This document shows, piece by piece, positions 19,178-21,956 of a DNA stretch of 64,000 nucleotides (position 1 is its first letter; every line of letters begins with the position of its first letter). The position numbers and the translations under genes were made by a program. Location: assembly GCF_003226535.1 (NCBI RefSeq), contig NZ_QKOB01000018.1, positions 1 through 64,000 of the forward strand, in the 5' to 3' direction. The DNA comes from Meiothermus sp. Pnk-1. GTDB taxonomy: Bacteria > Deinococcota > Deinococci > Deinococcales > Thermaceae. Under the pieces are notes generated by a model. It was not told where the DNA came from and did no database searches. It saw only the letters and a program-made list of their open reading frames with translations.

Positions 19178-19828
19178 CTAGGTGAGCGCGGCGATCAGAA
19201 CCCGCTTGAGGTGAGCCCGCCGGGCGGCCAAGAACTCGGGGCTGCGCACCTCCAGGCCCAGCGGGGTACCTAGCGTCTGGCGATAGACCAGGTGGGCGTA
19301 GCACAGCCCGATCACGCTCATCACCATCTGGCGTGGATCCTCCCCTACCGCCTTCCCCGGCAGCACGCTTTCGACGGCCCGGAGGGCCCGTGCAATGGCC
19401 TCTTGGTGAGCCTGCACCTCGCCGATCAGGGTGTTGCCCTGTAGCTCTGACCACTGGATCAGGCGGAAGAAGTCGGGGTTCTCCTCGGCGAATTCCAGGC
19501 ACGAATCCACCAGGGCCGCGATACGTTCACTCACCCCGGAAACCTCGGCCAGACGGGCCAGGGCGCGCGGTACGACCTCCATCGCGGCGCGGCTATACGC
19601 CTCTAGGACGGCTTTCCAAAGCCCCTCCTTGGAACCGAAAAAGTAGCTCGGGGTACCCCGGGAGACCCCGGCGGCGCTGGCGATCTGCGCCATGGTGGTC
19701 GCCTCATACCCCTGCCGGGCGAAGAGCCTGGAGGCGGCTTGCAGGATCGCTTCCCGGGTGCGATCGGCGTCCCTGGAGCGCGCTGTGGCCTGGCCACCTT
19801 GTTCGGGTTTTACTTGCTGAACGTTCAT
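19178..19828 (-). CDS. TetR-family regulator
   Basis: 216 aa. Helix-turn-helix at about residues 28-65 (TREAILQAASRLFARQGYEA, MAQIASAAGVSRGTPSYFF). The C-terminal ligand domain has a TetR_C pattern (DSCLEFAEENPDFFRLI). Transcribed just ahead of the broken FAD oxidoreductase; likely local repressor of that unit. The start codon lies inside an inverted repeat that is a plausible self-operator. Confidence 0.88.
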   Translation of the reverse strand: MNVQQVKPEQGGQATARSRDADRTREAILQAASRLFARQGYEATTMAQIASAAGVSRGTPSYFFGSKEGLWKAVLEAYSRAAMEVVPRALARLAEVSGVSERIAALVDSCLEFAEENPDFFRLIQWSELQGNTLIGEVQAHQEAIARALRAVESVLPGKAVGEDPRQMVMSVIGLCYAHLVYRQTLGTPLGLEVRSPEFLAARRAHLKRVLIAALT

Positions 19829-19837
19829 TTAGTAAAT
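19818..19837. promoter_or_regulatory. Overlapping palindromes at the tetR start
   Basis: TGAACGTTCA (19818-19827) and ATTTAGTAAAT (19827-19837) are adjacent palindromes covering the tetR start codon. Such an arrangement is typical of TetR self-repression. Confidence 0.45.
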
Positions 19838-20064: not shown

Positions 20065-21081
20065 ATGCCACAAAAACTCGTTCCCCTGACCGAGTACGCC
20101 GCGCAACAAGGCATCCCCGAGAGCACCCTGCGCTGGCAGATCAAGCAAGGCCAGCGGGAAGCAGTGCGTCATGGTCGCTACTGGTACATTCCAGTGGAGG
20201 TGGAAAAGCGCAGCCAAACCACCCAGGTCTTCACCCTCTTTACCCATGCCGGGGGCGCGGGCAAAACCAGCTTAGCCCGCGACTTGGGCTTTGCCCTCTC
20301 CACCCGTGGCTACCGGGTGTTGCTCATTGACGCCGATCCCCAAGCCAACCTCACCGCCTGGTTGGGGGTGGATCCCACCTCGGTAAGCAACCAGGAGACC
20401 CTGCTGACGGTGGTGGAAAACGACCAGCTTCTGCCCGCACCGCGCACCGGCTTGATCGGCGGCCTCGAGCTGATCCCCGCCAACATGAACCTGGCCCTGG
20501 CGGAGGTGATCATCCCCTCTAAAACCCTGGGGATGCTCCCCCTGCGAACTACCCTGCACGATATGGAGTGGTTCACCCACTATGACTACATCCTGATCGA
20601 TTCCCCGCCCTCCCTGGGTCCCCTGGCCGGCATGGCTGCCTTGGCCAGCCACGGCCTGATCGTTCCGGTGGAGACCAGCGCCAAGGGAATGCAGGCTTTG
20701 CGAGGGGTCGTCGAAATCGCCAGGGATTACGTGAAGAGGCTGGCCTCGGTTCGCTTCCTCTCTCCCAAGACCCAGTTTGTCCGCATGTTGGTGCCCACCA
20801 AGTACGATCCCCGCACCAACCAGGACCGCCAGGCCCAGCAACTCCTGGAGGAGGCAGCCCGGATCGCCCCGGTCTCCCCTCCCCTCTCCTACCGTCCCGC
20901 GCCGTACAAGGAGGCCATGGATCAGTGCCTACCCATCCAGGCGGTAGGGGACCAAAAACTCTTGGAGGAGATGGAGGCGGTTTGTGCTGCTTTCGTTCGC
21001 CAGACCCAGCCTGAGGAGATGCTTCTTTCGCCGCAAAGCGGGGAGACGTCTCCTTCGCCGCGCAGCGGGGGGGTGGCCTGA
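20065..21081 (+). CDS. parA: ParA partition ATPase with N-terminal DNA-binding segment
   Basis: 338 aa. Residues 8-45 form a MerR/excisionase-like helix-turn-helix (YAAQQGIPESTLRWQIKQGQ) as in plasmid ParA proteins that repress their own operon. The Walker A motif is HAGGAGKTS near residue 62: the second lysine is kept but the signature lysine of KGGxGKT is alanine. DADPQANLTAWLG and LIDSPPSLG follow normally. The C-terminal end contains two family B mini-repeats. It overlaps parB by one base (TGATG). Confidence 0.9.
   Translation: MPQKLVPLTEYAAQQGIPESTLRWQIKQGQREAVRHGRYWYIPVEVEKRSQTTQVFTLFTHAGGAGKTSLARDLGFALSTRGYRVLLIDADPQANLTAWLGVDPTSVSNQETLLTVVENDQLLPAPRTGLIGGLELIPANMNLALAEVIIPSKTLGMLPLRTTLHDMEWFTHYDYILIDSPPSLGPLAGMAALASHGLIVPVETSAKGMQALRGVVEIARDYVKRLASVRFLSPKTQFVRMLVPTKYDPRTNQDRQAQQLLEEAARIAPVSPPLSYRPAPYKEAMDQCLPIQAVGDQKLLEEMEAVCAAFVRQTQPEEMLLSPQSGETSPSPRSGGVA
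21015..21070 (+). repeat. Mini-repeat family B, tandem copies in parA
   Basis: Two overlapping 29-bp units (21015-21043 and 21042-21070) of the form GGAGAxGxTTCTTTCGCCGC + AGCGGGG, 6 mismatches between them, encoding LLSPQSGE and PSPRSGG at the ParA C-terminus. The junction GGAGACGTCTCC is a perfect 12-bp palindrome. Confidence 0.7.
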
Positions 21082-21956
21082 TGGGAACCATGGACAGGAT
21101 GTTCCAGCAAGCCCAGGGCTTGCTGGAAACCCCGCTTTCCGTAGAGAGCACCCTGCCCCTTAGCGCCCTCTCCCCCACTCCCCAGCCCCGCCGCCGTTTC
21201 GAGGGGCTGGAGGAGCTGGCGGCCTCCATCAAGGAACAGGGAGTTCTCCAGCCGCTCTTGGTGCGCCCAACCAAAGACGGGTACGCCATCATCGCCGGAG
21301 AGCGCCGCTACCGAGCGGCCCAGATGGTGGGGCTCAGCGAGGTGCCGGTGGTGATCCTGGAGGTGGATGAGGCCACGGCGAGCAAGGTGGCCCTCGTCGA
21401 GAACCTGCAACGGGAAGACCTCAACCCCTATGAGGAAACCCTGGGCATTCTCTCCCTGCTCGAAATGCGCCTGAACAAGGGTAGGGAAGAGGTGATAGGG
21501 CTGCTGCATCGGATGCGGAATGAGGCTAAAGGGAGAGTTACCCATAACGTTATGGGTAACTCGGAAGCCCGGGTGGTCGAGGAGACTTTCCAGGCGCTAG
21601 GCCGCCTTACCTGGGAGAGCTTCGTGCAAAATCGCCTCCCGTTGTTAAACCTGCCCGGGGACCTACGGGAGGCGCTCGAGGAGGGGAGCATTTCCTACAC
21701 CGCTGCCCTAGAGCTTAAGAAGCTCAGGGAGGAGGCAAAGCGGAAGGAACTGCTGGAGGAAGCCAAGAGCGGGCTTTCCCTGAGGGACCTCAAGGCTCGG
21801 GTACGGGAGGCCCTGAAGCGGGGGGCCTCCCCGGGGTCTTGGCACAAGGAGGTAGCGGCCAGACTCGCCAGGCTGGACCTCGAGGCCCTCCCCCTCGAGC
21901 GACGGAAGGAGCTTGAACGTCACCTCGAGGCCATCCGCCGGCTCTTGCAGGGATAA
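21081..21956 (+). CDS. parB: ParB partition protein
   Basis: 291 aa. ParB/Srx domain with FEGLEELAASIKEQGVLQPL, the CTP-binding GERRYRAAQ motif near residue 72 and VALVENLQREDLNPYEE. The following helix-turn-helix region (ALGRLTWESFVQNRLPLLNL) is slightly divergent. The C-terminal dimerisation part is rich in charged helices (LPLERRKELERHLEAI). A 28-bp perfect palindrome lies within the gene at 21535-21562 and codes for KGRVTHNVMGN. Segregation of the host replicon is the expected role. Confidence 0.9.
   Translation: MGTMDRMFQQAQGLLETPLSVESTLPLSALSPTPQPRRRFEGLEELAASIKEQGVLQPLLVRPTKDGYAIIAGERRYRAAQMVGLSEVPVVILEVDEATASKVALVENLQREDLNPYEETLGILSLLEMRLNKGREEVIGLLHRMRNEAKGRVTHNVMGNSEARVVEETFQALGRLTWESFVQNRLPLLNLPGDLREALEEGSISYTAALELKKLREEAKRKELLEEAKSGLSLRDLKARVREALKRGASPGSWHKEVAARLARLDLEALPLERRKELERHLEAIRRLLQG
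21535..21562. other. parS: Candidate parS centromere: 28-bp perfect palindrome inside parB
   Basis: Core CCCATAACGTTATGGG, extended on both sides so that 14 consecutive positions pair with their complement. No second copy was found by eye in the window. It codes in frame within parB, between the CTP-binding domain and helix-turn-helix. Perfect palindromy of this length without a T-run is typical of a protein-binding site such as parS. Confidence 0.65.

Follow-up and report, generated by a model that had tools for sequence, protein, structure and literature searches.

A parB gene that carries a long, perfect palindrome within its own coding sequence raises the question of what that palindrome is for and, in particular, whether it is the centromere that the encoded protein reads. 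The gene lies in the window, the 64-kb stretch of DNA analysed here, with which a 99,333-bp contig begins. A sequence-only reading had put forward the 28-bp palindrome as a candidate intragenic parS, and the present analysis supports that proposal through the symmetry of the site at the DNA level, its co-variation with the recognition helix of ParB and the existence of an extragenic site in a sister family. With a probability of roughly 0.92, we regard the palindrome as the predicted parS (centromere) of the window replicon, read by the ParB of the same gene, a prediction made from sequence comparisons. Physical binding of ParB, its loading and spreading, and a role for the site in partition are what we infer from the ParABS family and from Thermus thermophilus HB27.

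The host gene forms a two-gene operon with parA, the stop codon of which overlaps the parB start (Table 1). The ParB protein matches the Pfam ParB_N (E 3.9e-27) and HTH_ParB (E 4.1e-07) models, has ParB, Spo0J and Noc as its top structural (PDB) and profile matches and possesses the GERRxR motif of CTP-binding ParBs, GERR being invariant among its relatives. Several features of a ParABS system are seen at the locus: a palindromic site, a parA gene linked to a parB gene that encodes ParB_N and HTH domains, and a site located within or close to the par operon. In the ParA protein, HAGGAGKTS takes the place of the usual KGGxGK[ST] of the deviant Walker A motif, such that the signature lysine is missing, as it also is in the ParA of locus L261 (NQAGGVGKTT), and a DNA-binding-like N-terminal segment lies ahead of the Walker A motif.

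Table 1. Features of the parAB locus in the window; arm positions are counted from the dyad
Feature	Position	Strand	Basis or remark
parA, ParA-type ATPase, 338 aa	20065..21081	+	ORF; Pfam AAA_31 E 1.2e-26, also ParA and CbiA matches
parB, 291 aa, ParB_N and ParB HTH with insertion inside HTH	21081..21956	+	ORF; Pfam
First helix of split HTH, codons 135-149	21483..21527	+	Predicted model; includes residues 139 and 143, linked by co-variation to arm positions 8-10
Loop hosting site (HTH insertion), codons 150-159	21528..21557	+	Predicted model, pLDDT dip to 75
Predicted parS (ParB-binding centromere), 28-bp perfect palindrome	21535..21562	.	Symmetry, recoding, co-variation, extragenic counterpart in sister family
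Site core, 20 bp (arm positions 1-10)	21539..21558	.	Part kept symmetric family-wide, 111 distinct sites
Recognition helix, codons 178-190	21612..21650	+	Predicted model and co-variation
Residue 183, Gln	21627-21629	+	Co-varies with arm position 5
Residue 184, Asn	21630-21632	+	Co-varies with arm position 4

The palindrome (GAGTTACCCATAAC/GTTATGGGTAACTC) comprises two 14-nt arms that are 100% complementary, with a spacer of 0 nt, and spans parB codons 152-161 (RVTHNVMGNS), so that, as first described, it is perfect and encodes VTHNVMGN in frame. It is the longest of all perfect even palindromes in the window, the runner-up having an arm of 11 nt, and from base composition an arm of at least 14 nt is expected ~0.0009 times in 64 kb. 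Synonymous recoding of the gene, using its own codon usage with all residues unchanged, gave an arm of at least 14 nt in none of 1000 trials (best arm 11 nt). The original observation is thereby confirmed. The T-run expected of an intrinsic terminator was looked for 3' of the palindrome and none is present, again as first reported. Further copies were also sought, and a pattern search allowing up to 3 mismatches in 24 found the palindrome once only in the 3.51-Mb assembly. Over the site, ten of ten codons are shared with the closest relative, pMESIL01, as against 70% of codons for unchanged residues across the gene as a whole.

Two other inverted repeats lie nearby. One, at 21102-21128, is near-perfect, with 13-nt arms and a 1-nt spacer, covers the first parB codons (FQQAQGLLE) and has an RNA fold z of -2.7. 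It was considered as a second site and rejected, being degenerate in pMESIL01 and having no AACGTT centre; it is perhaps a translation-control hairpin or a product of chance. The other, at 19809-19836, has an 18-nt arm (83%) and is probably the operator of a TetR-type gene (19178-19828, minus strand), the start of which it overlaps.

Where in the protein does the palindrome fall? An AlphaFold2 model of ParB (pLDDT 90, from a 45-row alignment) places loop 150-159 between a helix formed by residues 135-149 and another formed by residues 160-173, ahead of the recognition helix, indicating that the site is written in an insertion that splits the HTH. The Pfam HTH model detects the protein only from residue 180 onward. 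The loop is of variable length, greatly so in cyanobacteria, where it can hold arrays of sites.

The sequence-only reading had suggested that the palindrome might be a trait shared by the parB genes of Thermaceae plasmids, and that a lack of conservation among homologues would refute the candidate parS. Genome collections, plasmids and whole genomes yielded 153 distinct related parB genes for comparison. Eighteen of these form a single Deinococcota sister family (f5) with no palindrome at the loop, and the remaining 135 were scored. In 131 of the 135, the loop holds a palindrome whose codon phase matches that of the window site and whose dyad always falls between the two codons of an Asn-Val-type pair. 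The carriers are found not only in Thermaceae but also in cyanobacteria, in a Methylohalobius MAG and in a Rubrobacter MAG. The two MAG genes are probably transfers or mis-binned contigs, since no further close relatives were found among the genomes sampled from the class of the former and the phylum of the latter. Four genes depart from this pattern: L105, which is truncated, L187, L204 and L223; in the first three the site is decayed or short. Almost no ParB relatives of the window type were found in a viral contig collection. The arms themselves are widely divergent in sequence (CCCATAACGTTATGGG, CCCCCAACGTTGGGGG, CCCGCAACGTTGCGGG, TTGACGGATAACGTTATCCGTCAA, TTGGAGGAAAACGTTTTCCTCCAA, AATTGGGACAAAACGTTTTGTCCCAATT and GTTGTCCCACGACGTCGTGGGACAAC) and in 113 of 127 genes the palindrome is reproduced in no more than 1% of synonymous recodings; it is thus conserved well beyond the needs of the codons.

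In the 131 related genes, changes in the site go hand in hand with changes in the amino acids predicted to read it. Co-variation was measured between the site and protein columns outside the loop, with 300 permutations made within clades; the statistics rest on related sequences but are clade-controlled. The strongest protein-DNA pair joins residue 184 and arm position 4 (z 12.8), with a mutual information of 0.89 compared with a permuted mean of 0.30 and a maximum of 0.44 in 300 permutations. Asparagine at residue 184 goes with T at position 4 in 72 of 73 cases, histidine with C in 25 of 25, and serine, threonine, alanine or valine with A in 31 of 32. Residue 183 is likewise linked to position 5 (z 5.5; arginine with G in 13 of 14) and residue 143 to position 8 (z 7.9), residues 143 and 139 tracking positions 8-10. 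With columns 143, 183 and 184 left out of the tree, residue 184 and position 4 both change 33 times; amongst 15 independent pairs on well-supported branches, 13-15 changed in the same direction and none in the opposite direction (p 6e-5). The code learned in the main Thermaceae clade, where it accounts for 45 of 46 genes, correctly predicts 83 of 85 genes elsewhere. Residue 184 lies 27 codons from the dyad, and the co-variation is therefore not a coding artefact. Via the gapless motif VxNxLxLLxLP, residue 184 aligns with N178 of Caulobacter crescentus ParB, a residue that is reported to contact parS and to be conserved in ParB and Noc (PMC7383237). Canonical parS has T at position 4, in agreement with what the code predicts for asparagine.

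The eighteen sister-family genes provide a further line of evidence. At 17 of the 18 loci, GCCATAACGTTATGGC or a close form of it is found outside the gene but beside parAB, normally just upstream of parA and at some loci downstream too. None of the 36 exact copies of GCCATAACGTTATGGC in the sister-family genomes falls inside parB; 32 are situated no more than 5 kb from the gene, and two further contigs hold the remaining four. Four of the Thermaceae genomes searched also have this 16-mer, in each case at the parB loop. On the parAB contig of one Thermaceae MAG, the site in parB is accompanied by a 32-bp palindrome that is intergenic, has the same 24-bp core and adjoins a primase-helicase gene. 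Amongst cyanobacterial genes, those with long loops hold two to four exact copies of one palindrome in the loop. The complete plasmids pVV8 and pNOS7524.01 have exactly one copy each, within parB.

Could the site instead be an operator, at which binding of ParB (or ParA) chiefly autoregulates the par operon rather than marking a centromere? The sister-family copy just upstream of parA is in the place expected of an operator, and many ParB systems combine operator and centromere roles. The window site, however, is ~450 bp into the second gene of the operon, the sister family has extra copies downstream of parB and the cyanobacterial arrays are within parB. Furthermore, were the sole copies on the two complete plasmids operators only, those plasmids would be left without a centromere of this kind. 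We consider an operator role of this sort unlikely in the extreme and favour the reading of the site as a centromere.

A number of additional copies were seen in the course of this survey. In seven cyanobacterial parB genes (L229, L224, L225, L227, L230, L228 and L218) the loop is expanded to repeats, forming an intragenic array of sites; in L229, the palindromes are often 81 nt (27 codons) apart. At L145 and L146, one sister-family copy, situated downstream of parB at a distance of ~0.7 kb, forms part of a longer, 44-bp perfect palindrome (CGGCTGAGGGGTCTGCCATAACGTTATGGCAGACCCCTCAGCCG). Partial copies of parB that keep the palindrome are found beside the full gene at L234 (from 3889; HB8 pTT27) and L163 (from 3094; a cyanobacterium), and others, of the Thermus brockianus type, at L101 (from 3071) and L118/L127, as if extra centromere copies had arisen via partial gene duplication. 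A decayed parB fragment in a 2.15-Mb chromosome-sized contig (L262:3001, G070) retains a perfect CCCATAACGTTATGGG core. The 16-mer CCCATAACGTTATGGG also occurs in twelve viral stretches, with many dispersed copies in two contigs. The viral contigs (L245, L246, L248, L249, L251 and L254-L256; IMGVR_UViG_3300031228_000003, IMGVR_UViG_3300027636_000007 and related) have copies that are mostly intergenic, often read GCCCATAACGTTATGGGC and share the core of the window site, and no ParB of the window family was detected in the viral stretches bearing CCCATAACGTTATGGG that were examined.

The pattern of symmetry within the arms indicates the level at which the site is constrained. Among 111 distinct sites, the two arms form Watson-Crick pairs in 95-100% of cases at positions 1-9 and in 82% at position 10, with a fall to chance level at positions 13-14. 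At position 9, 109 of 111 sites are matched (44.7 expected) with all four pair types in use, evidence of massive compensatory change. G-U pairs are nearly absent, with none at position 4 (10.2 expected) and none at position 9 (14.7 expected). The centres of the palindromes vary (GACGTC and AGCGCT, for example) and yet the four middle bases stay self-complementary. That the arms diverge yet remain symmetric, with almost no G-U pairs, argues that the constraint acts on DNA, not on RNA or protein.

These observations bear directly on the idea that the palindrome is accounted for by an RNA hairpin in the parA-parB mRNA, serving as an attenuator, pause or processing site. The RNA strand does fold to a 12-bp stem (z -4.06), but G-U pairs, which RNA stems tolerate, are those that the sites shun, and the four central bases remain self-complementary even though they would form an unpaired loop in RNA. 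Neither the co-variation of the arms with the ParB recognition helix nor the intergenic location of the sister-family site, upstream of parA or downstream of parB, fits such a hairpin, and its probability is smaller still than that of an operator. There is next to no chance that the site is a mobile palindromic element inserting in frame, like those of Rickettsia: the loop tolerates insertions and some cyanobacteria have tandem copies, but the palindrome is single-copy in the window genome, pVV8 and pNOS7524.01, nearly all copies in 111 Deinococcota genomes are in or beside parB, and arms that co-vary with ParB residues are not expected of a mobile element. Equally hard to credit is that protein constraint alone, a need for VTHNVMGN in ParB folding or function, has given a palindrome by accident, for whilst the central Asn-Val is near-universal among palindrome-bearing genes, the residues vary (THNVMG, TDNVIR, EENVFL, RHNVMP, GQNVLS) with the DNA still palindromic, recoding rarely yields a palindrome, the sister-family loop lacks Asn-Val and the site is also found outside genes.

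If the palindrome is indeed a centromere, it may work as follows. A ParB dimer would place one recognition helix on each arm; counting outward from the dyad, residue 184 would lie at base pair 4 and residue 183 at base pair 5. ParB would load at the palindrome, as its GERRxR motif suggests, and the neighbouring ParA would then move the loaded ParB such that the plasmid reaches each daughter cell. The site can be accommodated inside a gene because it is located in the variable loop inserted into the HTH, where the amino-acid content is of little importance, and it is this latitude that enables the palindrome to change along with the recognition helix. The loop sequence of ParB appears to be set by the DNA site rather than by the protein.

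A close point of reference for the window site is the megaplasmid pTT27 of T. thermophilus HB27, the ParB of which is 62% identical to that of the window and for which a parS, parSm, has been reported inside parB (PMC4409726, PMC10085754). ParBm-GFP forms foci in E. coli with the parBm gene alone, and the gene must therefore contain its own site (PMC4409726). The published parSm is a palindrome located 3' in parBm, supported by EMSA with competitors in which 200 pmol protein and 18-bp probes were used at 25 C (PMC4409726). Unlike the window site, however, this sequence (AAGGACGCGTCCTT) starts near codon 219, outside the HTH loop. Nearly all other parB genes examined lack it, T. parvatiensis has a broken form (AAAGACGCGTCCTT) and, at the aligned place, the window parB reads AGGGAGGAGGCAAAG instead. 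Its arm position 4 is G, where C is expected from His184. The HB27 loop, by comparison, holds a near-palindrome (TAGGGACAACGTTGTTCCTA; also given as TTAGGGACAACGTTGTTCCTAC) with one core mismatch and with C at position 4, fitting His184, although 49 of 1000 synonymous recodings match its symmetry, which is not significant. As it is neither conserved nor consistent with the residue-to-base code, the published parSm may be misassigned.

These results also allow a broader proposal, which we judge to be probable, if well short of assured: that in a plasmid ParB lineage, found in Thermaceae, cyanobacteria and a few others, the centromere has been taken into the codons for the DNA-binding domain that reads it, with the HTH-splitting loop as a landing pad whose sequence the DNA site dictates, and that HB27 parSm is misassigned. 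If so, reader and site would form one unit, hardly separable by recombination, and plasmid specificity (incompatibility) would diversify via joint changes at residues 183, 184 and 143 and in the arms. For a large set of plasmids from Thermus, Meiothermus and cyanobacteria, the centromere could then be read from the parB sequence alone, and the code would predict whether two plasmids have the same partition specificity or not. The parS assigned to the HB27 megaplasmid is called into question. The more than 100 matched protein-site pairs represent a natural data set for studying joint change in a DNA-binding protein and its site, and complement earlier work on ParB and Noc (PMC7383237).

How does the window site compare with other known systems? 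In the literature searched, mostly papers not behind subscription, we found neither the loop site nor the cyanobacterial arrays nor the residue-to-base code described, and nothing relevant on cyanobacterial parS of the window kind or on the core ATAACGTTAT. In B. subtilis, parS-359 is one of several chromosomal parS sites and has the fixed canonical sequence. It lies within the parB (spo0J) gene (PMC4442127) and, with parSm of HB27 (PMC4409726), qualifies the earlier view of an intragenic centromere as unusual: intragenic parS is already known, and the loop site is a variant of it. The window site resembles parS-359 in being located within parB and, as predicted, read by that ParB, but the sites of its family vary with ParB and are the only copy on the plasmids checked. 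In the repABC replicons of Alphaproteobacteria, parS is inside the partition operon, in some cases at the 5' end of repB (PMC9040568), and is in that respect like the plasmid site described here; the repABC site, however, is not in the HTH of its reader and is not universal to the gene family. The window site (TTACCCATAACGTTATGGGTAA) does not match the 16-bp consensus of canonical chromosomal parS (the Spo0J box, TGTTNCACGTGAAACA), agreement being limited to the ACGT centre and T at position 4. With canonical parS (TGTTTCACGTGAAACA) and the Noc site NBS (PMC7383237) it nevertheless shares its dyad geometry, T being at position 4 in both, with the contacting asparagine (N178) at the position that aligns with residue 184, and with canonical parS it also shares the ACGT centre. 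The arm sequence differs from both and, unlike the conserved N178 of ParB and Noc, residue 184 varies (N, H, S, T, A), giving rise to several specificities.
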